In this document: positions 898-17,116 of the stretch, piece by piece
How the letters are laid out: each line of letters begins with the position of its first letter
How positions within the stretch are numbered: position 1 is the first letter of the stretch
NCBI RefSeq assembly: GCF_016742135.1
Contig: NZ_JACVCG010000004.1
Location: forward strand, 1 to 64,000
Direction: 5' to 3'
DNA length: 64,000 nt
DNA from: Brevundimonas sp.
GTDB taxonomy: Bacteria > Pseudomonadota > Alphaproteobacteria > Caulobacterales > Caulobacteraceae
The notes under the pieces: model-generated
What the model was told of the DNA's origin: nothing
Databases searched by the model: none
The model's input: the letters and a program-made list of their open reading frames with translations, nothing else
Position numbers and translations under genes: made by a program

Positions 898-954
898 TGT
901 TTCGACAAAAGGCAAGTTCTTGAGTTGTTCTCACGCCCGACCCATATTGCCGAC

Positions 955-1227
955 ATGGTCCAGACGACAGCCCGCAAGGCGCCAAAGGGCAGGGGCGCGC
1001 GCTCCAATGCCACCGGCCGCTATGAGGCCCATGTGGCCGAGGCCATGGACGACGGCTGGACCTCTGACGACGCCGAGGTCGCCCCGCTGCGCACCGAGCA
1101 GCTGATCGAGCGGCCGAAGACCATCATCTCGAAGAACACCAGCCCGGATGTCGGCTTTGACCGCTCCATCAATCCCTACAAGGGCTGCGAGCACGGCTGG
1201 CCCTATTATTCTGTTACACACCCATGA
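955..1227 (+). pseudogene. PA0069-family radical SAM protein, 5' fragment cut by element insertion
   Basis: This is the N-terminal part of the host gene: ATG at 955, GRGARSNATGRYE, a TIISKNTSPDVGFDRSINPY segment, then the start of the cluster motif at GCEHG. At 1199 host sequence gives way to the element, inside the codon for the second cluster cysteine (TGT becomes TGG). The frame then reads nine foreign codons and stops at TGA 1225-1227, which overlaps the start of the element-borne copy. The rest of the gene lies at 16268-17116. The fragment keeps only one cluster cysteine and should be inactive, but its transcription and translation probably serve the downstream copy. Confidence 0.9.
1180..1222. 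other. attL, left junction of the element
   Basis: Host sequence ends at GGCTG (1195-1199), and element sequence GCCCTATTATTC follows. The same GGCTG occurs at the right junction (16268-16272). In a serine-integrase reaction the exchanged dinucleotide would be TG (1198-1199), because it sits at the centre of the dyad in the rebuilt attP. Confidence 0.8.
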
Positions 1228-2312
1228 CCGAGGCTGTGAAACTGAGGTCATCCGTTCGAGGGCGCGGCGCAAAATCGAACGCCAGCGGCCGCTTCGAAGC
1301 CACCCAGGTCGAGGCTTTCGACGACGGGTGGACCGATGAAGACGCCACCGCTTCGACCCAGATTCCGACGACGATAACCCCACTCCGCTCTCGAACCATC
1401 ATCAGTAAGAACCAGAGCCCCGACATCGGCTTTGAGCGTTCCATCAACCCATACAATGGTTGCTCCCATGGATGTAGTTACTGCTATGCGCGCCCGTCCC
1501 ATGCCTACTTGGGCCTATCCCCGGGCCTGGATTTCGAGAGCCGCATCTTCTTCAAGCCCGACGCCGCGCGTCTCTTGGAACAGGAACTCAGCGCCAGGAA
1601 ATACGTCTGCAAGCGCATCCACATAGGCGGCAATACAGACCCCTATCAGCCGGACGAGCGCGAACTGAAGATCACGCGTAGCGTGCTGGAGGTGGCGGCT
1701 CGGTTCAACCAGCCTGTCAGCGTCATAACTAAATCCAGCCTGATCACGCGCGACCTCGACATCTTGGGCCCGATGGGGTGCGACCGGCTGGCGACGGCAT
1801 TTGTCTCCATCACGACCCTGGATCGCGGTCTGGCCCGCGCGATGGAGCCCCGGGCCTCGACACCCGCTAGACGGTTGGTAGCGATTTCCCGTCTGGCCGA
1901 CGCCGGCGTGCCCGTCGGTGTCGGTTTTGCCCCTGTCATTCCCGGACTGAACGACCATGAGTTAGAGTCCGTCTTGGAAGCGGCCGCCAAGGCCGGTGCG
2001 GTGACCGCTATGTACGTCACCTTGCGCCTGCCGCTGGAGATCAAGGACCTGTTTCGCGAATGGCTGGCAGACGCCCGACCGGACCGTGCGGCCCGGGTCA
2101 TGTCGCTGGTTCGCCAAACGCGCGGGGGCAAGGACTACAACGCTGACTGGGCCCAGCGGATGAAGGGCGCCGGCCCCGTAGCCGACCTGATCGGGGCTCG
2201 GTTTAAGGCGGCCGTCAAACGCTATGGGCTGGACGGACCCCGCCACGATCTGGATACGACGAGGTTCACCGTTCCACACGGGTCAAGAAGCCAGATGGAC
2301 CTTTTTGAGTAG
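1224..2312 (+). CDS. PA0069-family radical SAM protein, element-borne intact copy
   Basis: A full-length 362-residue protein of the PA0069/Rv2578c family, radical SAM enzymes related to SplB whose substrate is unknown. The 4Fe-4S motif CxxxCxxC is intact at C80, C84 and C87. The N-terminal GRGAKSNASGRFE and the C-terminal QMDLFE match the family. It closely resembles the disrupted host gene over its whole length but has many synonymous and some amino-acid differences, so it is a diverged homologue rather than a duplication. ATG 1224 overlaps the TGA of the truncated host frame, and no independent strong RBS is visible, so translational coupling is likely. Integration therefore swaps the gene rather than simply destroying it. 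Confidence 0.93.
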   Translation: MTEAVKLRSSVRGRGAKSNASGRFEATQVEAFDDGWTDEDATASTQIPTTITPLRSRTIISKNQSPDIGFERSINPYNGCSHGCSYCYARPSHAYLGLSPGLDFESRIFFKPDAARLLEQELSARKYVCKRIHIGGNTDPYQPDERELKITRSVLEVAARFNQPVSVITKSSLITRDLDILGPMGCDRLATAFVSITTLDRGLARAMEPRASTPARRLVAISRLADAGVPVGVGFAPVIPGLNDHELESVLEAAAKAGAVTAMYVTLRLPLEIKDLFREWLADARPDRAARVMSLVRQTRGGKDYNADWAQRMKGAGPVADLIGARFKAAVKRYGLDGPRHDLDTTRFTVPHGSRSQMDLFE

Positions 2313-2444
2313 ACCGCGCGAGTATGTCTGCGATGCGCCAGAAGCGGTCATTGACCTATCGCTGGGGAGCGGACGTTCAGGTCACCGGGATATAGACGGT
2401 CGAACAGAACAAGGTGCTGGTGTCAGCGGCAAACCTACGAGCGG

Positions 2445-2713
2445 CTAGTTTGAAAACTCCCACTCCTGAGTGACGAAGTGGCGGGCGACTTCGGCGCTCG
2501 CGTAGCAGCAGGCGTCGTGCAGGCGATCATCTTTTTCAGGACCACAAGCATCAGCGACCGCCTTGATGCAGATGAATTGAGGCGGAGCGGCCCTCGAATG
2601 CTTGCACGCGTAGTAGAAGCCATATGATTCCATGTCTACGCCCCCGATATTGTCGTTAAGAGACTGGATGCTTTCGACAACGTCAGTGTCCGCAATCACC
2701 GCAGAGCCAGAGA
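2445..2713 (-). pseudogene. Truncated nucleoside phosphorylase/nucleosidase (PNP_UDP family), 3' remnant
   Basis: About 89 C-terminal residues remain, with NDNIGGVDMESYGFYYAC, the PNP/UDP-family signature in which the Met-Glu pair binds ribose, then FICIKAVAD and a closing helix. The 5' part is missing: coding similarity stops at the inverted repeat of the IS at 2714, and the ORF upstream of that point is IS sequence. Related domains hydrolyse or phosphorolyse purine nucleosides, including methylthioadenosine. The loss probably came from an IS-mediated deletion. Confidence 0.75.
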
Positions 2714-3523
2714 GTGCTGTCAACTTAACTCCCACGCATCGCCAAGTTGAGCGGCTTCGATCACGACGCCACAGCCGCATTCCAGGCAGCATGCGCCTGC
2801 GCCCGGAACGTCCGAAGCGTGCTTCGGCTGACCAAATGCCGCTGGGTGTAGAAGGTGTTGTAGACGGCGGCGTGGACCGTCAGGAACCGCTGCGCTGAGG
2901 CGGCGCTCTTGAAGCCGATCATCTGCCGCTCGCGCTTTCGGATCGGCAGATGCGAGTTCTCAGCACGGTTGTTCTCGCGGAGGCGGCCGGGGTGATGGCG
3001 GTCGCTGAGACCCAGCCGATCCAGAGCGGTCTTGTACGAGCCGAGGCCGTCCGTGACGATCGTCTCCGGCACAACTGGCTGATCCCGCAGCAGCTTTCTC
3101 AGGAAGCTTTCGGCGGTCGCGGCATCCCTTCGGCGCTCGACGGTGGAACCGAGCACCTCCCCTTCGTCGTCGACCGCGCGCCAGACGTACATGTACCGCC
3201 CGCCGATCGAGCTCACCATCTCGTCCAGATGCCAGCGCGGCGAAGGCGCCGGTCGGCGTCGCCGGAGGTTCCTGGCGATCTGCAGTCCGAACTTCCGGCA
3301 CCAGTCGCGGATCGCCTCGTAGGAGACGTCGATGCCGCGTTCGGCGAGGATCTCCTCAACGTCCCGGAGGCTGAGATTGAAGCGGTAGTAGAGCCAGACC
3401 GCGCGCTTGATGACGTCGCTTTCGAACCGGTGCCGCTTGAAGCTGATTTTCGCCATAAGTCCCTGCCCTGCATGAACTTTTCAGCATATCAGTAGAGACG
3501 GGTTAGGGTTAGACTGACAGCAC
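2714..3523 (-). mobile_element. IS6-family insertion sequence
   Basis: An 810-bp element has terminal repeats GTGCTGTCA (2714-2722) and TGACAGCAC (3515-3523); the similarity continues imperfectly inward to TAAC. It holds one transposase gene. The 8 bp outside each end (gccagaga and catcgcag) do not match, so no target duplication is visible, as expected after an IS6-type adjacent deletion or recombination between copies. Confidence 0.8.
2761..3456 (-). CDS. IS6-family transposase
   Basis: A 231-residue DDE transposase of typical IS6 length. The N-terminal helix-turn-helix is followed by the catalytic residues D78 (HLDEM), D136 (VTDGLGSY) and E166 (NRAENSH). The RxxHHPGR stretch and the YNTFYTQRHL ending also fit the family. 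The frame is intact and the terminal repeats are present, so it may be active. IS6 elements move by replicative transposition and often delete neighbouring DNA, which would explain the cut nucleosidase next to it. Confidence 0.92.
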   Translation of the reverse strand: MAKISFKRHRFESDVIKRAVWLYYRFNLSLRDVEEILAERGIDVSYEAIRDWCRKFGLQIARNLRRRRPAPSPRWHLDEMVSSIGGRYMYVWRAVDDEGEVLGSTVERRRDAATAESFLRKLLRDQPVVPETIVTDGLGSYKTALDRLGLSDRHHPGRLRENNRAENSHLPIRKRERQMIGFKSAASAQRFLTVHAAVYNTFYTQRHLVSRSTLRTFRAQAHAAWNAAVAS

Positions 3524-3618
3524 CATCGCAGCGGCGGTTGGCTCCGCATCCAACCACTGCCTACAGTCCCAGTATCGCCTCAAGTCGTTCCATTCTCCTC
3601 GAACCGGAGCCATAACTG

Positions 3619-4422
3619 ATGAAATCCCTCCTAAGCGCCGCCGTTCTCGTCGCCACAACTTGCGGCGTAGCGCCTTGCCTGGCTCAGTCCATCGTACCCG
3701 GGCAGGTAGTTTTCGGAGCATTGGCTCCGGAGGACCGGGTGGATCACAGGGACGCACACTACGATTGTCATGATTTTGCGGGCGTCGCAGGCCAGTCGAT
3801 CGAAATCGTCATGCGCTCCATCGACGTGGATGCCTGGGTCGCGTTGCATCGTGGACCCGGCTGCCAGGGGGACTGGGAGGACGCCGACGACGACGGCGGG
3901 TTCGGCTTTCGAGCAGCGCATCTGGAGGCGACGCTGGATCAAGGGGGCACTTGGTCGTTCCGGGCCAGCAGCGCGGATTCACGGGACGTCGGAGACTACA
4001 TGATCGGGCTGGCTGTGGCGGACACGCCCGACGCCGCCCGCCTGCGCGCGGATCCCCTGACGATGACCGTCGGCAGTGAGGTGTCCGGCGAGTTGTCTCC
4101 GGTTGATGCCAACCTGGCGCCTGGGCGATATTTCGACTGCTATGAGGTCACCGTCGCCGGACCGGTGCAGGTGATGCTGAATGTCCGATCTGCGGATTTC
4201 AGCCCTGTCGGGCACGTCTACAGGGACCCGTCGTGCCGGCGGGGGTATATTGTAGAACTAGATTCCACGTCCGGGTCGGGCGAGGTTGATCCTCAAGAAT
4301 TTCGCGCGTCTGGGCTGCTCCCCAGAGCAGGGAGTTATTTCATCGCGGTGACCAGCGGCGGCCTTCGGGAGACGGGCGCTTACTCGATGAACATCACCGC
4401 GGCTCCTGCGACCCGACCGTAG
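3619..4422 (+). CDS. Secreted protein with two PPC-like beta-sandwich domains
   Basis: A 267-residue protein starts with a signal peptide (MKSLLSAAVLVATTCGVAPC, then LAQS). Two similar halves follow (about 25-135 and 140-260), each with a gSIxG..l...D.......Y.DC....aG..v...mrS.D pattern and a closing strand such as GDYMIGL or GAYSMNI. This is the pattern of bacterial pre-peptidase C-terminal (PPC) domains, which accompany secreted enzymes or bind at the surface. Each half has a conserved Cys pair (DC and the Cys in PGCQ or PSCRR) that could form a disulfide. It is the first gene after the IS, with GGAG upstream of the ATG. No catalytic domain is seen. Confidence 0.6.
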   Translation: MKSLLSAAVLVATTCGVAPCLAQSIVPGQVVFGALAPEDRVDHRDAHYDCHDFAGVAGQSIEIVMRSIDVDAWVALHRGPGCQGDWEDADDDGGFGFRAAHLEATLDQGGTWSFRASSADSRDVGDYMIGLAVADTPDAARLRADPLTMTVGSEVSGELSPVDANLAPGRYFDCYEVTVAGPVQVMLNVRSADFSPVGHVYRDPSCRRGYIVELDSTSGSGEVDPQEFRASGLLPRAGSYFIAVTSGGLRETGAYSMNITAAPATRP

Positions 4423-4567
4423 GGTAGATCAAGCTGGGCCCCGGCTCCGGCGTGTGCGGCGCAGAACGCTTCGGCGGCAGGCGAATGACGCAACCTGACG
4501 TCCTCTCCTTCTGACCTTGACGCTGGATGCCGCCTCCAGCTTCACTTCGATCTCCAAGGAGTGAGCG

Positions 4568-4993
4568 ATGTCTCTGGATCGTACGATTTTGGCGTTTGCA
4601 GCGGCTCCCCTTGCGTCGAGTCTTTCGCTCGGAGCCGCCCTCAGCGCGTCCTCAGGCGCGGACCCGACGTCTTGGGTTTTCGGGACCTTGATGATCGGAC
4701 TCTTCGGCCTCCTGTTCACCGTTCCTGCGACGGTGGTCGGAGGCGGCTCTTCACTTCTTTTGCTCAAGGCGACCCGCCGCGACAGCCTGCCCTGGTTCAT
4801 TCTGGCAGGGGCGATCGTCGGTCTGCTCTCGGGATTGATCGTGTTGTCCAGCGGCGGAACCCCTGACGAGCACAGAGAGCCGGGCTGGGTGTTGTTGCTG
4901 ATGACCGCATTCGCAGGAGCGGTGGGCGGCGCAGCGTTCGGTTTGGTCCGCGGCCATCCGACCACTGATGGCGAGGTGTCTAATGTTCTTTGA
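4568..4993 (+). CDS. Small integral membrane protein, four predicted helices
   Basis: A 141-residue protein with about four hydrophobic segments (roughly 8-28, 36-64, 74-94 and 105-126), the second rich in glycine and serine. AAGGAG lies 7 bp before the ATG. The 3' end overlaps the next start codon (4983) by 11 bp, suggesting co-translation with the following gene. I do not recognise the family. The stretch 4423-4567 before it shows no gene. Confidence 0.6.
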   Translation: MSLDRTILAFAAAPLASSLSLGAALSASSGADPTSWVFGTLMIGLFGLLFTVPATVVGGGSSLLLLKATRRDSLPWFILAGAIVGLLSGLIVLSSGGTPDEHREPGWVLLLMTAFAGAVGGAAFGLVRGHPTTDGEVSNVL

Positions 4994-5693
4994 GTTCATC
5001 GCGACTTCTCCGGCTCTGGCCGGTCACATTCAGGATCCGGCCGAGTGCCGCGTCGCGTCTCCCGAGCAGATCGCGCGGTTCGAAGCCGTCCGCACCGATC
5101 CCGCCTATGCCGACGCCCGCGCTCGCAACCTCGCTTACGAGGACGAGCTGTTCGCTGAGTTCGTCATTCCCGATGGCCCATGGCGATCGCCGCCTCCCGA
5201 CGCCCGCGTGCTGTTTCGAACGATCGCGCCGCCGGGCGGCCTCTACGGCAACACGATCTGGACGGCCGTCTGGCAGGAGAGCGACGGCTCCTGGTGGTTC
5301 TGGAAACAGGACCGTGACCCGCGGGTCGTCCAGCAGCCGCCCCAGCCCGGCTCCGCGCCCTCGGCCGCATCGGACACCGAGCGGTGGAAACCCTTGAGCG
5401 GTCGCCTTCGGGCGCAGAACGCGCAGGCGATCGAGGCGAGCCTCGAGGATCCTTGCCGCGCCGCGGCGGGACCTTTCTGGCCCGGCGAGGTTCCCTACGT
5501 GCCACCGCCTCCCCCTCCGGGCGTGCCCATGATTCCCCCGCCGCCTCCGACTCCGCCCGTTCCTGACTCCACCGTCGTCCATGTTCAGATGACCGAGCGG
5601 GGCCAACCGATGCGGCGGCTCGGCGCGTGGCGGACAGGGCATGGCAACCGGCTCATCGGCGCCGTCGCTTGGCCCCAACCGGAACTGGAGTAG
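4983..5693 (+). CDS. Unknown protein with a proline-rich linker
   Basis: About 236 residues. An N-terminal segment (FEFIATSPALAGHI) may be a weak signal peptide. A globular part with many Trp follows (WTAVWQESDGSWWFWKQ), then a proline-rich tract around residues 165-190 (PPPPPPG, PPPPPTPP), then a basic C-terminal strand pair (LGAWRTGHGNRLIGAVAW). The start at 4983 is preferred over 4968 because GGCGAGG sits just upstream of it. It overlaps the membrane protein gene before it and ends 3 bp before the next ATG, so the three genes look like one operon. The family is not recognised. Confidence 0.55.
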   Translation: MFFEFIATSPALAGHIQDPAECRVASPEQIARFEAVRTDPAYADARARNLAYEDELFAEFVIPDGPWRSPPPDARVLFRTIAPPGGLYGNTIWTAVWQESDGSWWFWKQDRDPRVVQQPPQPGSAPSAASDTERWKPLSGRLRAQNAQAIEASLEDPCRAAAGPFWPGEVPYVPPPPPPGVPMIPPPPPTPPVPDSTVVHVQMTERGQPMRRLGAWRTGHGNRLIGAVAWPQPELE

Positions 5694-5696
5694 GCG

Positions 5697-6191
5697 ATGG
5701 TCCGTGCCGCTCTTGCCCTGGTCCTCGTCCAGGCCCCGCTGACCCCCGTGCCCGACGCTCTCCGCGCTCCTGAGGCGGAGATCGTCGTGCTCGCCACAGG
5801 CGGCCCCGGAGACCCCGTCGCCGACCGGACCGTGCGACTGATCGAGGCGCTCGAAGCCGACGGCCGGCTCATTTACGGCCGGCCTTCCTTCGACGGCGAG
5901 GTGTTTCGACACTGCGTGACGGAAGACCCGAACCCCACCACCGAACGCCGCGACTGCGTGCGGGCCGCCATTCCTGAGCGCGCCTCGGCAACGCCGTTGG
6001 TGGTCATCGTCCTCGGCGACACGCGCGAGCGCGGCTCCTATCAGAGAATGGAGTGCATAGGTCCGCTCAGCGAAGGCTATCGCCGGTCGATCTACGTCAG
6101 GGATTTCGATCACCCCAGACCCGACGTGTCGGGCGGCACGCGCGACGCGGCTCTTCGGTGCATCGAGCAGGCGCTCGCAGCCAGCAGATAA
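5697..6191 (+). CDS. Unknown secreted protein
   Basis: 164 residues with a short N-terminal hydrophobic stretch (MVRAALALVLVQAP). The body has alternating strands and helices (EIVVLATGG, PLVVIVLGDT, RRSIYVRDF), which suggests a Rossmann-like or flavodoxin-like sheet, and four cysteines (CVTED, DCVR, MECIG, RCIE). It begins 3 bp after the previous stop with GGAG as RBS, so it is translated with the genes before it. Function unknown. Confidence 0.5.
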   Translation: MVRAALALVLVQAPLTPVPDALRAPEAEIVVLATGGPGDPVADRTVRLIEALEADGRLIYGRPSFDGEVFRHCVTEDPNPTTERRDCVRAAIPERASATPLVVIVLGDTRERGSYQRMECIGPLSEGYRRSIYVRDFDHPRPDVSGGTRDAALRCIEQALAASR

Positions 6192-6212
6192 ACACTCCCG
6201 CGTAACCAGCCC

Positions 6213-6758
6213 ATGATCGCCAGGATGTCGCCCAGGATGCGCAATCTGTTTTGGACCTTCGCCTTCTGCCTTGTGACGGCTCTAGCGGCTCCATCGGCGC
6301 GGGCCGCGCAGATGACGCCTGCGGCGGAGGCCCCCGAGACGCAGGAACAGCGGCTCGACTGCAGCCGGCTCACCGACAGCCTTTACTGGTTCTGCTACGC
6401 GCTTGATCGGAGAAACTGCGGCGTGGCGGATCGCAGCCACTACTGGTTCTGCAGGGCGATCTCCGAGCGCAAATGCAATTTCGCGGATCGCTCGGACTAC
6501 TGGGAGTGCCGTGCGCTCACCGAGAGGCGGTGCAACTTCGCCGACACAGATCGGTACTGGCTGTGCAAGGCGTTCACCGAGGATTGCGCCCTTGCACCGA
6601 TCGAGCACCGCGACTTCTGCTATGCGATCGCTCCGGTCTATCGCGGCAGGGAGCCTTGGTGCCTCGTGAGTGAATGGTGCCCCCGTTGTCCGATGCGGAC
6701 ACGAAGGCATGGCTGCGTGGCGTTGGCGAAGGGACACGCCGCCGGACAGTCCGGCTAA
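6213..6758 (+). CDS. Secreted cysteine-rich repeat protein
   Basis: After a signal peptide (FWTFAFCLVTALAAPSARAA), about five tandem units of 19-20 residues follow the pattern C..xxDxxYWxCxAxxxRx: CSRLTDSLYWFCYALDRR, CGVADRSHYWFCRAISER, CNFADRSDYWECRALTER, CNFADTDRYWLCKAFTED, then a weaker CALAPIEHRDFCYAIAP. Each unit has two Cys about 11-12 apart plus a Tyr-Trp pair, so units could be disulfide-linked in the periplasm. The tail (WCLVSEWCPRC) has more Cys. I do not recognise the family. The start is uncertain among three close in-frame ATGs. Confidence 0.6.
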   Translation: MIARMSPRMRNLFWTFAFCLVTALAAPSARAAQMTPAAEAPETQEQRLDCSRLTDSLYWFCYALDRRNCGVADRSHYWFCRAISERKCNFADRSDYWECRALTERRCNFADTDRYWLCKAFTEDCALAPIEHRDFCYAIAPVYRGREPWCLVSEWCPRCPMRTRRHGCVALAKGHAAGQSG

Positions 6759-6785
6759 ATGGCCGATTGCTCACGGAGAACGGAA

Positions 6786-7211
6786 ATGTCGCGGACGCAT
6801 ATGTTCCAGGCTGCGGTGCTGGCGATCTCACTGGGCCTTGCAGCCCCCGCCGGCCCAGCTTGTGCATGCACCTGCCTTCCCCCGGATCCCGCCGACCAGG
6901 TGGACGAGGCCGACGTCATCTTCGTCGGCAGGGTCGAGCGCGTCGTTCGCGTGGGCCAGGCTGGCGGCCGACCGATCAGCGCGACCGTCTTCAGGATCGA
7001 ACGGTCGCTCAAGGGCGACGTCGGAACGTGGACCGCCGTTCGTCACCAGTCCGGTGACAGCAGCCTTTGCGGCATGCAGTTCGACCGCGACCGCGAACAC
7101 GTCGTCTTCGCGCGTCGAGCCGAAGGGCGCCTTTACGCCCAGGCTTGCAGCCGGGACTGGCTGCCGCTCGAGCGATATGAAGCGGAGCTGATTAAGCTTC
7201 AGACTCGATGA
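6786..7211 (+). CDS. TIMP/NTR-like secreted protein
   Basis: About 141 residues. The signal peptide ends at PAGPAC, and the mature part begins CACTCLPPDPADQVDEADVIFVGRV. The CxC near the N-terminus followed by adviF.G.V is the hallmark of the TIMP/netrin-like (NTR) fold found in many bacterial secreted proteins. Later features are a central fRIERSLKGDVG strand, a single CG (SSLCGMQF) and a C-terminal AQACSRDWLP. The start at 6786 is preferred because GGAG precedes it; the 6759 start overlaps the previous stop. Bacterial members have no settled role. Confidence 0.65.
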   Translation: MSRTHMFQAAVLAISLGLAAPAGPACACTCLPPDPADQVDEADVIFVGRVERVVRVGQAGGRPISATVFRIERSLKGDVGTWTAVRHQSGDSSLCGMQFDRDREHVVFARRAEGRLYAQACSRDWLPLERYEAELIKLQTR

Positions 7212-7263
7212 TCACAGGCATTGCTGAGTGGGCGAGATGGTGCCCGCATTCCTGTGGTCCCGT

Positions 7264-7611
7264 TCAGGTTCCCCAAGCCTCGCAGGATCCCGGCATCCAA
7301 TCCACGCTGGCGCCTTCCGGTACTTGTCCGCGCCCGAGAAGCAGCTTTTCCGTGTTCGCCGGCGCCGTCACGAGCTGCTTGCCGCCCGCACGAGCCACCA
7401 CCACGCAGTAGGGGGTGTTCGACGTATTCTTCGCCCAGAGCTCTCGGTACCCGTAGGTCGAGCTGTTGTAGCCGGGGGGATAATGCCAAACGGTGATTTG
7501 CCCCCATTCGGTGCTGTGAACTTCCGGTTCGGGAGACAGGAATATCGTCTCACACCCCAACAAAACCGTGGATGCCGAAACGATGAAGAAGGCTTTCAGT
7601 AGTCGCGCCAT
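7264..7611 (-). CDS. Small lipoprotein
   Basis: 115 residues with a lipobox: the hydrophobic leader AFFIVSASTVLLGC places the lipidated Cys at residue 20, followed by E, which suggests outer-membrane sorting. The mature part is about 95 residues with several Tyr and Trp (WHYPPGYNSSTYGY) and two Cys. It runs opposite to the 3619-7211 gene block and converges on the TIMP-like gene. The family is not recognised. Confidence 0.6.
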   Translation of the reverse strand: MARLLKAFFIVSASTVLLGCETIFLSPEPEVHSTEWGQITVWHYPPGYNSSTYGYRELWAKNTSNTPYCVVVARAGGKQLVTAPANTEKLLLGRGQVPEGASVDWMPGSCEAWGT

Positions 7612-7627
7612 TTGCAGGATACTCTCC

Positions 7628-7801
7628 TTAAGTCAGACATTTGTGGAATACTTGGATGGCCCCCGATTCAGGTATCCAAGCCTCGTAGAGGAGTCCGAAT
7701 CCAGCAGCGCCTCGATCGTGGAGGTTGAGAAAGAGGAAATCAGATTCCAGCACCGCAACGTCGAAGCGCTTGCGCGGCAAGAAAGTCGGATCCCAAGTCA
7801 T
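7628..7801 (-). CDS. Short ORF coupled to the serine hydrolase gene
   Basis: A 57-codon frame whose ATG overlaps the TGA of the upstream hydrolase (ATGA, 7798-7801). The peptide is well mixed (FDVAVLESDFLFLNL, GLLYEAWIPESGAIQVF), unlike the arginine- or proline-rich shadow frames in this GC-rich DNA. It may be a real small gene or the tail of a lost one. No family is recognised. Confidence 0.35.
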   Translation of the reverse strand: MTWDPTFLPRKRFDVAVLESDFLFLNLHDRGAAGFGLLYEAWIPESGAIQVFHKCLT

Positions 7802-8889
7802 GGCCGCCACCCGGGGATCGCGGCCGTCATGCGCCACATCATCTGGTCCAGCTTCAGGGTGACGTCCGAGCCAGGGCCGCCGGTGTTGGTCAGTGCCGCC
7901 ATCACATAACCCGAGCGCGTCTTGCACATGAAGGCGGCCGTGCCGTGGATGATGCCCGTATGCCACCAGTTGTCCCACTGGTTGATCTGCCATCCGTGGC
8001 CGTAGGCCGCGCCGGCGAACGGCCCGGTGGCCATCAACCTCGCCGAGGCAGGACGCAGGATTCGTCCCGGGCCCTCCGTCCCGTCGACGGCCGTCACGAA
8101 TCCGACCAACTCCCTGGCGCTGGCGATCCAGCCGCCGTTCGCGTCCATGCGGCGCACGTCCACCGCGGTCGGATCATCGAAGATCGTCAGCGCGCGATAC
8201 TCCACCTCGCCGACGCCCCGCGCGCGGTCCCCGACGCGCATGCCCCCCGCACCGCAACGGGACAGGACGTCGCGACGAACCCAGCCCTCATAGGGTTCCC
8301 CCGTCACCTGCTCGATGACCCTGCCAAGGATGAGATAGGCGAAGTTCGAATAGCTTTGCCGTGTGCCGGGCGCGGCTTCCAGCGGACGCTCGGCCAGGGT
8401 TCTGGCGATGAGCTGACGTTGATCGAGGTCGGGGTGGGCGAAGACCGGATCACGCCCGTCGTTGGTCCACCCTCCTGCCGTGTGGTTGAGCAGGTGACGC
8501 ACACGAAGCGCCCGGAGCGGCCCGGAGGTCGGGCCGAACCGATCGCCAAGAATGGACCCCGGTCCGAAGATCGTGGAGTCCAGGGTCAGTCGGCCCGTTT
8601 CGATGAGCCGCATGACGGCCGCCGCCGTGATCGGTTTGGAAAGGCTGGCGATGCGGAACCGGTGATCATGCGTCAGCGGGGCGCCGGCCTGGTCGGCCCT
8701 CCCCCAAGCCCCGACGAAGCCGAGCGTGCCGTTGCGCGCCATCGCGACCTGCAATCCCGGCGCGCGCGTCGCGGCGAGGAAGCTCGCGGCCTCGGCGTCG
8801 ATGGCGGGGTTAGCTTGCCGCGCAAAGGTTGGCGACGTCGCCGCGAGGGCCAGTCCCCCAGCCAAGAGGTTTCTGCGCGTCTGGCTCAT
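7798..8889 (-). CDS. Serine hydrolase, beta-lactamase/penicillin-binding class C-like
   Basis: 363 residues with an N-terminal Tat-like signal (QTRRNLLAGGLALAATSPTFA). Catalytic motifs are in family order: SxxK as SLSK near residue 82, YxN as SYSN near 180, and HTG (WWHTG) near 313. This is the layout of class C beta-lactamase-like esterases and D-aminopeptidases, exported to the periplasm. The real substrate cannot be told from sequence; resistance should not be assumed. The length is normal for a stand-alone domain. Confidence 0.85.
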   Translation of the reverse strand: MSQTRRNLLAGGLALAATSPTFARQANPAIDAEAASFLAATRAPGLQVAMARNGTLGFVGAWGRADQAGAPLTHDHRFRIASLSKPITAAAVMRLIETGRLTLDSTIFGPGSILGDRFGPTSGPLRALRVRHLLNHTAGGWTNDGRDPVFAHPDLDQRQLIARTLAERPLEAAPGTRQSYSNFAYLILGRVIEQVTGEPYEGWVRRDVLSRCGAGGMRVGDRARGVGEVEYRALTIFDDPTAVDVRRMDANGGWIASARELVGFVTAVDGTEGPGRILRPASARLMATGPFAGAAYGHGWQINQWDNWWHTGIIHGTAAFMCKTRSGYVMAALTNTGGPGSDVTLKLDQMMWRMTAAIPGWRP

Positions 8890-8969
8890 TACCCCTCTCT
8901 CTTCTCGCCAATTTTCAAGCGAGCCATAGACCGCGATTTTTCCCGGCCCCGCGTGCTTCAGACATGGCG

Positions 8970-9434
8970 TCAGTCGACTGCGCTATCTGTGATGCGCAAG
9001 GTGGCGTCGGGCGTCGCCCATTCTTCCTTTGCACCGACCCAGATGTCGTATTGGCCCGATGGCGCGGCAAAGATCACCAAGCCAGGATCGCCGCCGTTGA
9101 GGCCACTGTCGTCGTCACACGCCCAGCTCCCGTTCGGAAAATTGACCAACAAGGTCGTGTCCGCTTTCGAATGCACCAAGAACACCAAGGGGGCTTCGCC
9201 AGCGGTGTAGTCGACCACGAAGTGAGGGCCTCGCGACACGAAGCCCCGGCAACTTGGAAGCAGTTCAGTGACGTCGATGTTCTCCAGTCCGCCGGCCTTT
9301 AGCTCCACGGCGTGCTCCCCGCCTGCGGCCAAGCTCACCCGACCATAGATGGGCTCAATTCCTATCTCCTGCGCGTTCACCGATGCGGCGAGCGTGAGCT
9401 GCAGCGCCGAGGCGACGAAAAGAGCTTTGATCAT
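8970..9434 (-). CDS. Secreted PPC-like single-domain protein
   Basis: About 154 residues: signal peptide (MIKALFVASALQLTLAASVNA, then QE), then one beta-sandwich domain. Family-type motifs are DLLP-like SCRGFVSRGPHFVVDYTA, DTTLLVNFPNGSWACDDDSG, GDPGLVIFAAPSGQYDIWVG. The W.CDDD....DP..........G.YDIWVG pattern is common in small alphaproteobacterial periplasmic proteins. The start at 9434 is chosen over 9443 because AAAGG lies about 9 bp before it. No enzymatic motif is visible. Confidence 0.65.
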   Translation of the reverse strand: MIKALFVASALQLTLAASVNAQEIGIEPIYGRVSLAAGGEHAVELKAGGLENIDVTELLPSCRGFVSRGPHFVVDYTAGEAPLVFLVHSKADTTLLVNFPNGSWACDDDSGLNGGDPGLVIFAAPSGQYDIWVGAKEEWATPDATLRITDSAVD

Positions 9435-9719
9435 GACTGTCATCCTTTCCCCAAGACGATGAAGGTTTTCGTTTAGACCTCCAACCCTCTTAAAGCTGAT
9501 GGTTGCGACCCGGAGGTTGTCGCGCGCGCTATTGCAGCGTCGCAATCCTTGCACTGCTGGCGACGGGAAACGATCGCTCCCGTTGCCTGCTACGAGTGAG
9601 ACGCGGATGTGCTGGGTCTTAGCTCCAGTGCCGGGCCTGAAGCGGACGGGTCGAAGGTCGGCCATGAGTCAGTTCCGGTCATCGGTCGTCTAATCCGCTA
9701 GCACTTCGCGGCGTCGGGA

Positions 9720-10169
9720 CTACAGGTACCCTCCCCCCGCGCGCCACGCGGCCACGGCGCCATTGAGCGGCGCGTTGGTGTCGCGGATCATCATCTGATC
9801 AGGCAGCGTGCCGACCGCGAAGGCCGTGTGTTCGTTGAGCCAGACGTCAACGTGGCCTTCAACATAGCCTGGGTACTGGTCCGCCAGACCGCGGATGGCG
9901 TGGTCGCTACCGATGAGAACCAAGCCAAGGGCAAACCGCAGGTCGGACCCGTCGCTATTCCCTTCCAGATGACATTTCATTGTTCCGGGCAGATCGGCCA
10001 CGTGATGCGAATACAGCGTGATACCCGGCGTCAGGTCCACCCAGCCTTGGCCCGGGATTTTGACCGTCAGCGTTGACTGCATGATCAGTGCGATGTCGCC
10101 CGGACCCGGACGCAGGACCGGGCCGCTACGGAAGCAGTGCGCGTGTTGAAAAACGTAGTCAGGCACCAT
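9720..10169 (-). CDS. Unknown 149-residue protein coupled to the serine recombinase
   Basis: The ATG lies 2 bp after the stop of the large serine recombinase, so it is probably the last gene of that operon. It is soluble with no signal peptide. It has alternating strands (STLTVKIPGQGWVDLTPGITLYSHHVADL, LRFALGLVLIG) and several His. I do not recognise the family. Its position makes a role with the recombinase possible, for example as a directionality factor, but cargo is equally possible. The stretch 9435-9719 between it and the PPC-like gene shows no gene. Confidence 0.5.
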   Translation of the reverse strand: MVPDYVFQHAHCFRSGPVLRPGPGDIALIMQSTLTVKIPGQGWVDLTPGITLYSHHVADLPGTMKCHLEGNSDGSDLRFALGLVLIGSDHAIRGLADQYPGYVEGHVDVWLNEHTAFAVGTLPDQMMIRDTNAPLNGAVAAWRAGGGYL

Positions 10170-10171
10170 GT

Positions 10172-12271
10172 CTATTCATCTTCCGTGGGGACGCCGAACT
10201 GTCCGATGACGACGACGAAGGCTTCCGGAGCGCCAATGCGGATCGGCGGCAACGGCAGGTGCATCGACGGGATGGGCTCGGCGAACGCGAGGCGTTTCCA
10301 CTCTTCGTCGGAGCGTTCGATGTGGTTCCAGACATGGCCCGAGCGCTTCGGGCCGCACGAGATGCTCCGAATTTCGCCAGCCCTGTCGAGGTAGCGGAGT
10401 ACATTCAGGACGCGTCGCCCGTGTGATCCGGCCGGGCTATAGTCGGGCTCCCAGTCCGACGCGTAGCCCTCCGCCTTGACGATGGCATCGATGATGGAAC
10501 GGCGGGTCAGGGGAACGTCCGTGTCGTCCAACATCCGCGCCACCAAGGGCAAGTCGGCGTAAGTCTGGGCGTCAAGTCGGTCATCTTCCGGAATGTAATC
10601 AGTATAATAGCGGAACCGCACAGTCGCGGGGTCCTGCACTGTTCCCGGATGTGAAGAATGCAGGATGACACCAGCGTCGTCCGCCAGGTCGACCAGGGCC
10701 GAGAGCGGGCCTTCGACGGTGACGCGCACGGGTCCCTGGCCGCGCTTGTCGATGCGCTCCAGCTCGATGGGGGTCAGGGTGACGCGCTCGATCAGGCCGC
10801 GCAGGGTGTCGCGGGCGCGGCCGGCTTCGCGGTCGTCGCCGGCGAGGGCGGAGCGCAGGTCGTCGAGCATGGCGTCCAGGCGGGCGATCACGGCCTCGGC
10901 CTCCAGGGGCGCGGGGGCGGGACGCGGCTTGACCTTGGTCTGGCGCTCGAAGCGCTGGCGCTCGGCCTCCAGCCGGTCCAGCTCCTTCATCATCAGCTCG
11001 CCCGCCAGGCCCTGGACGCGGCCGTCGCGGACCGTGTCCATGATATTGGCGATCTGGCGCTCCACCTCATTTAGATGGGTGGCCCCGGCCTCGGTGCGGG
11101 CGGCCAGTTCGGCGTTGGCGCGCTCGATCTCGGCGCGATACTCGGCGAGGTAGGGCTCAATCAGTTCGGGCTTCAGCAGCCGGCCCTTGAGGCCCCATAG
11201 CACCAGGTCCTCCAGGTCCTCGCGGGCCACGCGGCGGCGGTTGTCGCAGGTCCCCTCGCGGGCCGAGCCGATGCAGCTCAGCTTGTCGGAGACGACCGCA
11301 TAGGCCTTGCCGCAGACGCCGCAGCGGATGAGACCCGAGAGCAGATAGTCGGGGCGACGCCGTCCCCGGAAACTTGAGGGGGCGACGCGGCGGGCCTCGA
11401 TGCGATCCTGGACGGCCTGGAACAGTTCGTCCTCGACGATGCGCAGGTGGGGCACGGGGATGACCAGGCGTTCGCCCTGGGGGGTGACCTTGGCCTTGGA
11501 GGTGCCCTTGTGGCGGTTGTGCTTGGTGACGGTGCGGCCCCATTCGTTGACGCCGACATAGAGCCTGTTGCGCAGGATTCCGGTGCCGACGTCGCGGTTG
11601 CCGTAGATGGCGCCGGGCAGCCAGGGTCCGCCTCGGGGACCGGGCACGCCCTCGGCGTTGAGGGCCTTGGCGATCTCCAGGGGGGTCATGCCGGCGACGT
11701 AGTCGGTCATGATGCGGCGGACGACGGCGGCCTGGACGGGATCGGGCTCGCGCTGGCCGTTCTTGCCGTTCAGCGCCAGGACCATGCGATAGCCGTAGGC
11801 GGGCTGCCCGGAGATGCGGCCGTCCTTGACGGTGCCCTCCTGGCCTCGGCGGGTCTTCTCGGCCTGCCCCTTCACATAGCGGGCGTTCTGGGCGGCCTTG
11901 AAGGCGACCTCCATGTCGCTGACCACGCCGGAGGAGACGGTGCAGACGACGATGTCCAGGGCCTCCATTTCCTCCAGCATCCCGTGGGTGCCCGAGGCGC
12001 TGCGGCTGAGGCGGTCCAGGTCCTCGACGAGGATGACGGTGAACTCTCCCCGGTCGGCGGCGGCCAGCATGGCGAACAGGCCGGAGCGCCCGATCACCGT
12101 GGTGCCGCTGCGCTCGGCGTCGTGATAGGCGCCGGCCTCGACCCAGCCTTGGCGCTCGGCGTAGGCGCGGCAGAGGGTCAACTGGTCCTCGATCGACTTG
12201 AACGTCTGGTGGCCGGTCGAATAGCGGGCGTAGACGGCGTAGCGGGTGCCCGACGGCGGCAGGGCGCTCAA
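10172..12271 (-). CDS. Large serine recombinase (second of the element)
   Basis: 699 residues. The resolvase domain (about 10-150) has YARYST with the nucleophile at S18 and LVEDLDRLSR with the conserved arginines near 87-90. A recombinase domain (about 155-300), a zinc ribbon with C317, C320, C333 and C342, and a coiled-coil region (about 375-445) follow. About 140 extra residues at the C-terminus go beyond the usual integrase architecture. It starts with TTG, overlapping the stop of the gene before it (TTGA, 12268-12271). All catalytic residues seem present, so it should be active. It lies 4 kb from the element end, so it is probably not the integrase that formed attL and attR. Confidence 0.9.
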   Translation of the reverse strand: MSALPPSGTRYAVYARYSTGHQTFKSIEDQLTLCRAYAERQGWVEAGAYHDAERSGTTVIGRSGLFAMLAAADRGEFTVILVEDLDRLSRSASGTHGMLEEMEALDIVVCTVSSGVVSDMEVAFKAAQNARYVKGQAEKTRRGQEGTVKDGRISGQPAYGYRMVLALNGKNGQREPDPVQAAVVRRIMTDYVAGMTPLEIAKALNAEGVPGPRGGPWLPGAIYGNRDVGTGILRNRLYVGVNEWGRTVTKHNRHKGTSKAKVTPQGERLVIPVPHLRIVEDELFQAVQDRIEARRVAPSSFRGRRRPDYLLSGLIRCGVCGKAYAVVSDKLSCIGSAREGTCDNRRRVAREDLEDLVLWGLKGRLLKPELIEPYLAEYRAEIERANAELAARTEAGATHLNEVERQIANIMDTVRDGRVQGLAGELMMKELDRLEAERQRFERQTKVKPRPAPAPLEAEAVIARLDAMLDDLRSALAGDDREAGRARDTLRGLIERVTLTPIELERIDKRGQGPVRVTVEGPLSALVDLADDAGVILHSSHPGTVQDPATVRFRYYTDYIPEDDRLDAQTYADLPLVARMLDDTDVPLTRRSIIDAIVKAEGYASDWEPDYSPAGSHGRRVLNVLRYLDRAGEIRSISCGPKRSGHVWNHIERSDEEWKRLAFAEPIPSMHLPLPPIRIGAPEAFVVVIGQFGVPTEDE

Positions 12272-12519
12272 GACCCGGCCTCCTCGACCCCGTCGTCATC
12301 GAAGATGCTGTCATCGAAGACCTCGATGACGATGTCCATCTCCTCCATGGCCTCCATCGCCTCCAGCAACGCCTGGGCGCCCAAGGCGCCGTGGTCGGGC
12401 CGGTCCAGGTCCTCGACCCCGCCATCCTGCTCGGCACAGGCCCGGCACCGGGGCTGCCGGTCGGTGGAGTAGCGGGCGTAGAGGGCGACGCGTGCGCGGG
12501 GCGGCGGCGGGGCGCTCAC
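12268..12519 (-). CDS. Cut-down resolvase-domain protein
   Basis: 83 residues. It opens with RVALYARYSTDRQ, an almost perfect resolvase active-site strand (S18). It then skips about 40 residues of the normal domain and resumes at VEDLDRPDHGALGAQALLEAMEA, where the catalytic SR is replaced by DH. It ends with an acidic tail (FDDSIFDDDGVEE). It overlaps both neighbours by 4 bp (GTGA and TTGA). Preservation of the frame and couplings argues against random decay. It is unlikely to cut DNA alone; it could pair with the large recombinase. Confidence 0.6.
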   Translation of the reverse strand: MSAPPPPRARVALYARYSTDRQPRCRACAEQDGGVEDLDRPDHGALGAQALLEAMEAMEEMDIVIEVFDDSIFDDDGVEEAGS

Positions 12520-13259
12520 GACTTGACCTTCCGGCGCTTCTTCTCAGCGTGGCCGTAACGCGCCCTGAGCGAACGCTCCTGGCGGAGAGACTCGGTCATG
12601 ACGCTCCTGAACGCCACGTCCAGATCGGTGACGACGCCGCCGACGACGGTGTGGACGGCGACGCCCAGGGTCTTCAGCTCCGCCAGCAGACGAGGGACCT
12701 GCGAGGCGTCGCGGCTCAGGCGGGACACGTCCTCGACCAGCACGACGTCGAAGGCGCCACGTCCGGCCTCCGCGATCATCGCATCGAGGCTGGGGCGGGA
12801 CCCCGTCATGCCGCTGACGGCGTTGTCCTTGTAGACCGTGACCGTCTCCCAGCCCCGCTCGGCCGCATAGGCCTCGCAGGCGTTCCACTGGTCGGCGAGC
12901 GGATAGGGCGTCGCCCGAGAGGCGCTGGCGCAGCGCAGATAGATCGCGCAGCGGTGAGCCGGGCTGGGGGCCGGAACGGGGGCGGCGGCGGGAACATCGT
13001 CTTGCGGCCCGTCATCTTGCGGGACGGCGGCGATGGTGACGACGCGGCCGGCGCCGGCGTCGGCGACGATGACCTCGAACTCCCCGTCGCCGAGGCGATC
13101 GACCAGGCCGTTCAATCGGGCTCCCGCCAGCCCGACACCGGGGCGATCCTCGTCGATCATGGTCACGACCCGCAGACCGGCGCGCTCGGCGTGCCGGGCG
13201 CAGGTCGTCAGGGTCGATCCTCCGGCCATGTAGAGCGCGGCCCGCGCCGGGGCCGTCAC
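12516..13259 (-). CDS. Protein with two degenerate resolvase catalytic domains
   Basis: 247 residues. Domain 1 (about 6-80) keeps the outline (ALYMAGGST, FEVIVADAGAGR) but lacks the catalytic Arg and the YxRxS motif. A Pro/Ala linker follows (85-101). Domain 2 (about 103-240) is much better preserved: CAIYLRCASAS, YKDNAVSGMTGSRPSLDAMI, VVLVEDVSRLSRD and a C-terminal helix with a basic end. In domain 2 the nucleophile position of YxRxS is Ala (A111), with Ser at 112. It carries no recombinase or zinc domain. It overlaps the flanking genes at GTGA sites. A catalytically impaired partner or regulator of the large recombinase is the best guess. Confidence 0.65.
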   Translation of the reverse strand: MTAPARAALYMAGGSTLTTCARHAERAGLRVVTMIDEDRPGVGLAGARLNGLVDRLGDGEFEVIVADAGAGRVVTIAAVPQDDGPQDDVPAAAPVPAPSPAHRCAIYLRCASASRATPYPLADQWNACEAYAAERGWETVTVYKDNAVSGMTGSRPSLDAMIAEAGRGAFDVVLVEDVSRLSRDASQVPRLLAELKTLGVAVHTVVGGVVTDLDVAFRSVMTESLRQERSLRARYGHAEKKRRKVKS

Positions 13260-13495
13260 TGGACGCCTCCCAGGACCTCGGCGCGGGCCGTAATCCGCGC
13301 CAGCGACAGCATCAGGGGCAGCAGTTCGGCCGTCTCATCATCGAGGCCGTTGCTCAGGCGGTGTTCGGCCTGGGCCTGGCGCTGATGGCTGAGCAGGCAG
13401 CCGAACGAGGCGTCGCCGTGGATCGGCCGGGGTTGAAAGGCCGATGCGCCGTCCGGTTCGAACGGCGCATCATGGATGGGATCGGCATAGGACAT
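13256..13495 (-). CDS. Small unknown protein, first gene of the recombinase operon
   Basis: 79 residues with no signal peptide or membrane segment. The C-terminal half looks helical (LSNGLDDETAELLPLMLSLARITARAEVL), and the N-terminal half is loop-like. AAGGAG lies 7 bp before the ATG. A promoter-like pair and a direct repeat lie just upstream. Its stop overlaps the GTG of the next gene. Not recognised; it could be a regulator of the operon or a partner of the recombinase proteins. Confidence 0.55.
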   Translation of the reverse strand: MSYADPIHDAPFEPDGASAFQPRPIHGDASFGCLLSHQRQAQAEHRLSNGLDDETAELLPLMLSLARITARAEVLGGVQ

Positions 13496-13509
13496 CAGGC
13501 GGCTCCTTC

Positions 13510-13555
13510 ATTGTGAGTGGAGCGCCTATTAGGTCTACGGTCTATTGTGAGTCAA
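13510..13555 (-). promoter_or_regulatory. Promoter and direct-repeat operator of the recombinase operon
   Basis: Read on the minus strand, TTGACT (13555-13550) and TAATAG (13531-13526) are 18 bp apart and resemble a sigma-70 promoter. ACTCACAAT occurs twice in the same orientation (13552-13544 and 13518-13510): one copy covers the -35 box and the other lies near the expected start of transcription. This arrangement suits repression by a DNA-binding protein, perhaps the one encoded just upstream. Confidence 0.55.
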
Positions 13556-13560
13556 GGTCT

Positions 13561-14310: not shown

Positions 14311-14450
14311 ACGTGATGTCTCCTGACGTGGAACTATCTCCCCTTAGCGCATTGTGCTCTCAACTCCAAAAGAGCCTTGGCGTGCCGGTCTTATCATCCA
14401 CGGCTTGAATCGCGACGTCCTCGACATCGAGGTGGGAACGGCATTCGTAG

Positions 14451-16220
14451 TCAGTTTCCCTTGCGATGACGCCGGATGTAAGTGGCCAACCAGCCCGCGT
14501 TCGCGGGGGCCGGTCCGGTCCAAGGTTGCTCGTCTACCGGATAGTTTGAGAGGGTCGTTTCCACTCGCTCCGCCAAGGCCGGAGCGTCCAAATCTGGAAA
14601 CACCGCTTGCGTGAATGCCAGTCCATCGAAGCGCATGATGACCTTCCCATTGTTGTCGAACAGGCAGGCTAAGACACCTCCCGGCAGGAACAGGCCGATC
14701 TGACGTCCATCGCCGGGATCGACGCTGCACACGACCTTGCAGCCCAGTCCGACGATCGCATTGTGGACGCGCAGCCGCGCCGCCTGGCGGGTCGCCGGAT
14801 CGGGGTCGTCAAGAGCGTCGCGAACGTCCCGGACCCGCTCCAGGTGCTCGGCCGGGCTCACAGCTCCCTTCGCCGCTTCCAGCGCCTTGGCGGCGTCGTC
14901 ACGTTGCTCCATCAGATTGCGGAGGGATCGTTCGGCATCGACCAGCTTCGCTTCGATCGCCTCCGAGGCGCCAATCCGGCCAAGGGCCTCGACCCACCGA
15001 TCGACCTGCTCCTTCTGGTTGGAGATCGCCTTCTCAAGGTCGGCGAGAACCGCCGCCGAGGAAGCGGTCTGGTCCGGCTCGGCGAAGTAGCGATCATCGA
15101 GCGCGAGGTGGAGGATTTCATCCAACGCGGCGCGCTCGAATGGGTCGTAACGGAACATGGCCTTCTGCGAGCATCCGCGCCGGCGCGCCGCGAAGTTGCA
15201 CTGCCAATAGCGGTTGGCATTCGGCTGTCCGCTGGACCGAAGATGCATCCGGTTGCCGCAGGACTCGCACACGACAACGCCGGCGAACAAATTGGCGACG
15301 CTTCGGGTGTGGCGCCCCCCTTTCCGGGGGCCGGTCTTTCGCGATTCCACCTGAGCCCGAGCTCGCGCCACAAGGTCCGCATCGACGATCCGGGGGTAGT
15401 AGCCGACGATGCGTTGGTCGAACTTGGTCCGCTTGGCGCTAGTGTTGGAGAAGCCAGGCACATAGTCGCCTTCGACCGAAGGCTGGCTGAGGATCAGCTT
15501 GACCGAGCCGATTTCCCACGTCGGAGTCGACTCTGGCTTGCGCCATTTGCCCCACGCGGGGATGCCCCGCTCATTCAGCTCCTTCGCGATCCAACGCGCA
15601 CCCTTGCCCTGGGCCGCCATCTCATAGACGTCGCGGACCATCTGCGCGCGATCCTCGATAATCTCGAAGCCGCTCCGGTCGGCCTTGGCGATCAACCAAC
15701 CGGGCGCCTTTGCGGTGATGATCTGCCCCGTGGTCCGAGCCCGTTCCATGTTGCGGCCTATGCGGTCGAGCACACGTTCCGACTTCTGCTGGCTCTCGTC
15801 GTTCGCCAGCTTGGCTCGCATCAGAATTTCGAACACGCCCATGAGGTCGGCGCGAAGCCCCGCATCGTCAAAGACCTTGCCGCCATCGACAGTGGCGATG
15901 GTCAGCCCCGCCGCACACAGGTCCTCCATCCAGCGGAGGGTCGTCCGGGTCTCCTGACGAGACAGCCGATCCAGCTTCTCGACAACCAGGACCGTTCCAG
16001 CTCCGACGCTGCCGTCACGCACGCGGTTGGCAAAGAGGCCGAGTTCTCCGGCGGACAGGTGCGCCCCTGTCCATGCCGACCGTCCCAAGTCCTCAATCAC
16101 CTCATCGACAGGCCATCCCCGCTGCTCACAGAATTGTTGGCAGAGCTCCAGTTGCCGGTCGCGACTGGCTCCCCTCTCCTGCTTGGGCGTCGAAAAGCGT
16201 ATGTAGATAACAGCACGCAT
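14451..16220 (-). CDS. Large serine integrase of the element
   Basis: 589 residues. The resolvase domain has YIRFST with the nucleophile at S10 and VVEKLDRLSR near 79-88. A recombinase domain (about 165-295), a zinc ribbon with C318, C321, C341 and C350, and a helical segment (about 385-450) that can form the coiled-coil arm follow. The start codon is 48 bp inside the right junction, the usual place of a serine integrase next to its attP. It is therefore the natural candidate for inserting this element at the radical SAM cluster motif. After integration the sequence upstream of its start is host DNA, so any promoter in the other attP arm has been separated from it. The 140-bp gap 14311-14450 shows no gene. 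Confidence 0.92.
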   Translation of the reverse strand: MRAVIYIRFSTPKQERGASRDRQLELCQQFCEQRGWPVDEVIEDLGRSAWTGAHLSAGELGLFANRVRDGSVGAGTVLVVEKLDRLSRQETRTTLRWMEDLCAAGLTIATVDGGKVFDDAGLRADLMGVFEILMRAKLANDESQQKSERVLDRIGRNMERARTTGQIITAKAPGWLIAKADRSGFEIIEDRAQMVRDVYEMAAQGKGARWIAKELNERGIPAWGKWRKPESTPTWEIGSVKLILSQPSVEGDYVPGFSNTSAKRTKFDQRIVGYYPRIVDADLVARARAQVESRKTGPRKGGRHTRSVANLFAGVVVCESCGNRMHLRSSGQPNANRYWQCNFAARRRGCSQKAMFRYDPFERAALDEILHLALDDRYFAEPDQTASSAAVLADLEKAISNQKEQVDRWVEALGRIGASEAIEAKLVDAERSLRNLMEQRDDAAKALEAAKGAVSPAEHLERVRDVRDALDDPDPATRQAARLRVHNAIVGLGCKVVCSVDPGDGRQIGLFLPGGVLACLFDNNGKVIMRFDGLAFTQAVFPDLDAPALAERVETTLSNYPVDEQPWTGPAPANAGWLATYIRRHRKGN

Positions 16221-16245
16221 GGGCGAAGTTTAAGCTGCGTGCTCC

Positions 16246-16292
16246 CGTGCGTGCAATAGGATCGTAGGGCTGTATCTACTGCTATGCCCGAC
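16246..16292. other. attR, right junction of the element
   Basis: Element sequence ends in TAGGGCTG; the host gene resumes in frame at TGT ATC TAC TGC (from 16271). GGCTG (16268-16272) is shared with attL. Joining this arm to the left arm gives TAGGGC-TG-GCCCTA, with weaker symmetry extending about 14 bp further on each side. Confidence 0.8.
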
Positions 16293-17116
16293 CCTCTCAC
16301 GCCTGGATGGGCCTGTCCCCGGGGCTGGATTTCGAGAGCCGGATCTTCGTCAAGCCGGACGCCGCCCACCTGCTGGAGCAGGAGCTGGCCCATCCGAAAT
16401 ACGTCTGCAAACGCATCCACGTCGGCGGCAACACCGACCCCTATCAGCCGGTCGAGGACGAGCGGCAAACAACCCGCAGCCTATTGCAGGTCATGCAGCG
16501 CTTCAATCAGCCCTTCAGCCTGATCACCAAGTCGTTCCGGGTCACCCGCGACCTCGACATCCTCGGCCCCATGGGGCGCGAGAACCTGGCCCAGGTGTTC
16601 ATCTCGATCACCACGCTGGACCGCTCGCTGGCCCGGGCGATGGAGCCGCGCGCCTCGACCCCCGAGCGGCGGCTGGAGGCGATCAAACGCCTGTCCGATG
16701 CCGGCGTGCCCGTCGGCGTCGGCTTTGCCCCCGTCATCCCGGGCCTCAACGACCATGAGCTGGAGGATGTGCTGAAGGCGGCGGCAAAGGCCGGGGCCAG
16801 CCGCGCCATGTATGTCACCCTGCGCCTGCCGCTCGAGATCAAGGATCTGTTCCGCGAGTGGCTGGAGGATGCCCGGCCGGACCGCGCGAAACGGGTCATG
16901 TCGCTGGCCCGCCAGACGCGGGGCGGCCGCGACTATGACGCCGACTGGTCCCAGCGGATGAAGGGCACCGGTCCGGTCGCCCAGCTGATCGCCACCCGCT
17001 ATCGCGCGGCTGCCAGACGCTATGGCCTCGACCAGCCCCACCCCCTGCTGGACATCACCCGCTTCCGCGTCCCGCCCGAGTTCCGACCCCAGATGGACCT
17101 GTTCGACCTGGCGTGA
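16268..17116 (+). pseudogene. PA0069-family radical SAM protein, 3' fragment of the split host gene
   Basis: This continues the host frame of 955-1199: GCIYCYARPSHAWMGLSPG, then NTDPYQP, DILGPMG, MEPRASTP, GVPVGVGFAPVIPGLNDHE and the ending QMDLFDLA. The frame is open from the junction to TGA. An internal ATG at 16307 could give a peptide without the iron-sulfur motif. The sequence is not visibly decayed, so the insertion may be recent. It shares most residues with the element copy at 1224-2312. Confidence 0.9.

Follow-up and report, generated by a model that had tools for sequence, protein, structure and literature searches.

Mobile elements that restore the gene they enter are already known, as are phages with large serine recombinases (LSRs) that integrate into a sister family of the gene described here. 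Passages of one published account (PMC10111431) present replacement segments at attachment sites as the rule for gene-targeting islands such as icd prophages and tRNA gene islands, which leave the target gene usable after integration; in these islands attP rebuilds one end of the target, fused to what is left of the native gene. The same passages suggest that in helper-embedded satellites a captured intact back-up gene may stand in for the interrupted one; the genes concerned are prophage late genes, and neither att recoding nor ATGA coupling is described there. Excerpts of a report on the Streptomyces phage Samy (PMC12924846) describe an LSR phage that integrates into a radical-SAM gene of the Rv2578c family; they report the target as inactivated in the native host and mention no replacement. 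Rv2578c is the sister family of PA0069, and the PA0069-family protein P0002 encoded by the element presented here scores 200 bits against it. The Rv2578c family also houses selfish elements in the form of inteins (NF038136), apparently at the same cysteine motif, as far as the profile offset alone locates the intein site (the best-matching stretch of P0002 starts at residue 87 and model position 335). In phage T4, the homing endonuclease SegF lies beside a resistant target variant, gene 56, and acts by endonuclease-driven gene conversion.

The element presented here lies in the window, the whole 64,000-nucleotide stretch of Brevundimonas DNA that was analysed. Like the icd prophages and tRNA gene islands, it carries a replacement at its attachment site and would leave the target gene usable. 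Unlike them, it supplies a whole second gene and abandons both native pieces: the native gene is not restored by fusion, a long attL/attR identity block is absent, and the identity at the junctions amounts to just the TG core (GGCTG in the window, TG alone in the related element of genome G267). Like Samy, it has a large serine integrase; however, it brings a copy of its target. Inteins depend on protein splicing, whereas this element depends on DNA integration. As in the T4 system, the target variant that travels with the selfish element should be safe from the element's own enzyme; by contrast, the present element moves by site-specific integration. No description of a whole-gene, recoded and ATGA-coupled replacement was found in the open-access literature, and the combination is new as far as found.

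Anatomy of the element

The crossover dinucleotide TG occurs at 1198-1199 and 16271-16272, and the element is therefore 15,073 bp long (1200-16272). The insertion splits a PA0069-family radical-SAM gene within its CxxxCxxC codons. Joining the flanks (1-1199 and 16273 onward) gives back a gap-free 362-aa open reading frame with 95% identity to the intact Brevundimonas genes at L036/L037, which corresponds to a precise empty site in a relative. The LSR at one end (P0003) scores above the Pfam cut-offs for PF00239, PF07508 and PF13408. The ends of the elements in the window, G267, the outer element of G219 and Marinicauda define the attP consensus GTGyAAy-N13-TG-N13-GTTACAC, which is mirror-symmetric around the 2-bp TG core; the right arm of Marinicauda reads GTTGCAC instead of GTTACAC. 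Coordinates of the features are given in Table 1.

Table 1 Features of the element and of the flanking host gene in the window.
Positions	Strand	Feature	Basis or comment
916..930	+	LexA (SOS) box of the host gene, GTTC-TTGAGTT-GTTC	motif match to GTTCN7GTTC
943..948	+	-10-like hexamer CATATT, 6 nt before host ATG; putative leaderless-type promoter	same position in 34/36 native genes
955..1227	+	truncated host rSAM_PA0069 frame; host part to 1199, element DNA from there to TGA	
1198..1199	.	attL crossover dinucleotide TG	element-end comparison
1200..1219	.	attP right half: N13, then GTTACAC (1213-1219)	mirrored at the opposite end; geometry shared with G267, G219-outer, Marinicauda
1224..1227	+	ATGA overlap of copy start and host-frame stop	ORF coordinates
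1224..2312	+	element-borne full-length rSAM_PA0069 copy, 362 aa, CxxxCxxC intact	NF033668, 497.8 bits
1452..1493	+	recoded attB-equivalent patch in copy, codons 77-90; crossover codons 83-85 at 1470-1478	codon alignment
2445..10169	.	cargo, mostly unnamed proteins	
2761..3456		IS6-family transposase, cargo	
7798..8889		beta-lactamase-fold protein, cargo	
10172..12271	-	second large serine recombinase, 699 aa	relatives adjoin first LSR in G267 and Marinicauda
12516..13259	-	resolvase-domain protein, 247 aa	
13561..14310	-	protein of 249 aa, no family assigned	adjoins LSR in G267 too (47% identity)
14451..16220	-	large serine recombinase (integrase), 589 aa; Resolvase, Recombinase and Zn-ribbon domains	Pfam
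16251..16272	.	attP left half: GTGCAAT (16251-16257), N13, TG core (16271-16272)	element-end comparison
16273..17116	+	host gene 3' remainder, attR side, severed from its promoter	

The second LSR, the resolvase-domain protein and the 249-aa protein adjoin the integrase (10172-14310), and relatives of the second LSR are encoded at L051 (G267) and L096 (Marinicauda). One cargo protein (6759-7211) matches the Pfam TIMP family with 25.9 bits against a cut-off of 23.1. A search of the element cargo for defence systems found none.

The copy (P0002) belongs to the PA0069 family: its 497.8 bits exceed the NF033668 cut-off of 360, the match covers model positions 1-348 of 348, and all three cysteines of the CxxxCxxC motif are kept. 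It is under purifying selection (dN/dS 0.07/0.60 between the window and the inner element of G219). Element copies from other genomes and the native gene of G279 form one clade with it in a tree of nearly the whole gene (support 98/98). The closest relative of the element copies is the G279 gene (L064:6349-7435), which is native in style, lies behind a LexA promoter of its own and may represent the donor lineage. A tree of the 3' part had hinted at two separate captures, an idea dropped in view of the single clade; the later part of the G267 copy looks mosaic.

Recoding of the copy at the integrase site

Native genes compared with each other are least divergent around the core (3.7% quantile); the divergence of the copy from native genes is average there (62% quantile). 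Codons conserved in native genes are altered from the native majority in all three distinct copies at 7 of 13 positions within codons 77-90 and at 4 of 76 elsewhere (p=6e-5). The limits of the patch were set after the alignment had been viewed, and this p value and the following one are therefore only indicative. Part of the patch divergence is common to the copies and native G279, so only codons 83, 84 and 85, at the crossover, and codon 89 count as recoding; with the changes shared with G279 removed, the comparison of the copies with both natives and G279 gives 4 of 13 codons inside the patch and 1 of 76 outside it (p=0.0013). Since the copy is altered at DNA positions that the integrase would need, it is probably a poor target for the integrase of the same element.

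It is somewhat unlikely that the divergence of the patch reflects drift or ancestry instead of immunity to the integrase. Such an origin would accord with the small number of copies, just three being distinct, and with the native-style gene G279, which has a LexA promoter of its own and agrees with some or all of the copies at codons 78, 79, 81 and 90. However, codons 83, 84, 85 and 89 differ from both G279 and the native majority in every copy, the lineages differ in their choice of codon (AGT, TCC, AGC), and codons 91-103 are nearly unchanged.

Overlap and control of the replacement copy

The truncated host frame translates to 90 residues, the last of which are CEHGWPYYSVTHP, followed by the stop. 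Re-derivation of both reading frames confirmed what had been read from the sequence alone, namely that the ATG of the copy (1224-1226) and the TGA of the host frame (1225-1227) form a four-nucleotide stop/start overlap in one direction. Since the core TG ends at 1199, the start codon lies 24 nt past the core. The frame and base composition alone would give an ATGA in about 4-9% of cases (the upper figure reflects a 40% chance of A after ATG), and a single case is therefore not striking.

The sequence-only reading had pointed to the left ends of related elements as the place where a conserved ATGA should appear. It does: G267, G319 and the inner G219 element all have it, with the window's spacing of 30 nt, measured from the core TG to the end of the TGA. 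The outer element of G219 lacks it; there the host TGA is at 27 nt and the ATG of the copy about 130 nt further on. The copies share ancestry from one capture, and the four ATGA cases are therefore not independent events: they have one origin and have been kept across a synonymous divergence (dS) of 0.6-0.9. A general rule by which whatever gene sits at attL would overlap as ATGA was dropped: where elements lack a copy and have the LSR at attL, the overlap leads into the LSR in G344, whereas G147 and Marinicauda have none.

It is unlikely that the copy is ordinary cargo captured beside the integration site and that the ATGA, a frozen accident, contributes nothing to its expression. The chance of a single overlap, the shared descent of the four cases, the outer G219 copy, which is of the same lineage and has no overlap, and the inconsistent overlaps of the copy-less elements are all compatible with an accident. 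By contrast, the copy has stayed at the same end, at the same distance and in the same frame in four elements despite their synonymous divergence, it is under purifying selection, and it has no control signals of its own.

A LexA box, GTTCN7GTTC, lies 23-36 nt before the ATG in all 36 native Brevundimonas genes examined, and 34 of the 36 have an A2/T6 -10-like hexamer 6-9 nt before it. The box is kept at most loci across the class, and its sequence equals the LexA motif published for Caulobacter (PMC12700426). Caulobacter commonly makes leaderless mRNAs, of which 375 have been mapped (PMC4117421). In view of the boxes, the hexamers, the published motif and the frequency of leaderless mRNAs, the native PA0069 gene is probably SOS-controlled and leaderless. 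The host RBS assumed by the sequence-only reading is not supported: no Shine-Dalgarno-like stretch was found before the native genes, which look leaderless.

At their starts, all four element copies lack both the LexA box and the close -10-like hexamer. A scan of 860-2400, which does not model all alphaproteobacterial promoters, found neither a terminator-like nor a sigma-70-like site. The earlier prediction that the copy is served by the promoter and the translation of the host gains support from this absence of control signals and from the overlap kept in relatives. Coupling or reinitiation through ATGA overlaps is established in Escherichia coli and Haloferax (PMC6728339). The host promoter is the simplest source of expression of the copy, with reinitiation at the ATGA; since all native genes examined have the LexA box, nearly all the -10-like hexamer, and the four copies neither, the host SOS promoter combined with termination-reinitiation is the best explanation for control of the copy.

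It is very unlikely that a promoter within the attP arm, with TATTAT at 1204-1209 as one candidate, drives the copy through a near-leaderless transcript that does not depend on the host frame. The abundance of leaderless mRNAs in Caulobacter would suit such a promoter, and TATTAT is present both in the window and in the inner G219 element; however, it is not conserved in G267 and G319 (TTTACCACC), the scan found no sigma-70 site, and the GTTACAC of the attP arm occupies the -10 position that native genes use.

In G147 (L057:6168) and G344 (L063:5823), a LexA box at the right end of the copy-less element points at attR. In the circular form this box would drive the LSR, and together with the host promoter it may place the integrase under SOS control both in the circle and after integration.

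Need for the target gene and proposed course of integration

The sequence-only reading had considered the target essential or useful, and "essential" is unsupported. Among 105 genomes that are at least 95% complete, four have no strong match to the gene, including G147, which carries a split gene, and three have no match even at E<=1e-8. In G147, G344 and Marinicauda the gene is split and no copy was found; therefore the replacement is not required, and the target gene is useful at most, not essential. In G219 (C6; L058:6700-8150) two elements are nested at one site, the second within the copy of the first. With the first copy interrupted and the second ending at residue 241, G219 may have no working gene. 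The nesting, the probable SOS control of the target and the recoding of the copy at the integrase site had escaped the earlier reader.

The LSR of Marinicauda pacifica (L096:9600-10120) is 76% identical to that of the window, enters the same target and lies at attL of an element of about 40 kb without a copy. A related LSR in G002 apparently lies within a radC-like gene, as judged from the DNA of L013 upstream of the LSR. A class-wide LSR search returned the window genome and G002 only, and a class-wide rSAM search gave no clear further split gene with a copy among the matches listed. Viral contigs contained no relative of the LSR, whether single or aligned sequences were used, and one match to the copy, L146; this contig has the 3' part next to an LSR that shares 58% identity with the G219 LSR. 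Plasmid and phage records contained no close LSR and no close copy.

That the copy serves the element, for example in DNA repair or excision, instead of replacing the host gene is very improbable indeed: same-site insertions without a copy, in which the host survives without it, would fit, but the tree places the copy close to native genes of its genus, its position would restore native regulation, and the integrase needs no copy, since Marinicauda with its 76% identical LSR has none.

The joint explanation considered probable is that LSR insertion splits an SOS gene and that a host-driven, ATGA-coupled and recoded copy replaces it. The attP would recombine with an attB of 40-50 bp located where the SOS-controlled rSAM_PA0069 gene encodes CxxxCxxC. 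The whole-gene copy begins 4 nt beyond the attP arm, so that integration would place it directly downstream of the host promoter and the broken frame. The host promoter, with its LexA box and leaderless-type start, would transcribe both; ribosomes would finish the 90-codon host fragment at the TGA and reinitiate at the overlapping ATG, and through the shared transcript and reinitiation the copy would inherit SOS control and may yield a working protein. Altered at positions that the integrase needs, it would probably be a poor target of the same element. Quite possibly, although this is put forward tentatively, the element is a natural cut-and-replace selfish element that breaks an SOS gene and supplies a whole, integrase-resistant, promoter-capturing coupled replacement; this would keep the cost of carriage to the host low and block reinsertion of the same element.

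It is well known that islands can repair the end of a gene on entering it; the element in the window seems to replace the whole gene. It seemingly keeps damage-inducible control without carrying the promoter, and the copy is seemingly changed where its own integrase would cut. If this is true, the element shows how a highly conserved coding site can be used without harm to the host and provides a simple, testable case of integrase self-immunity. Reading frames annotated as a truncated gene with an intact paralogue downstream may then be coupled units.
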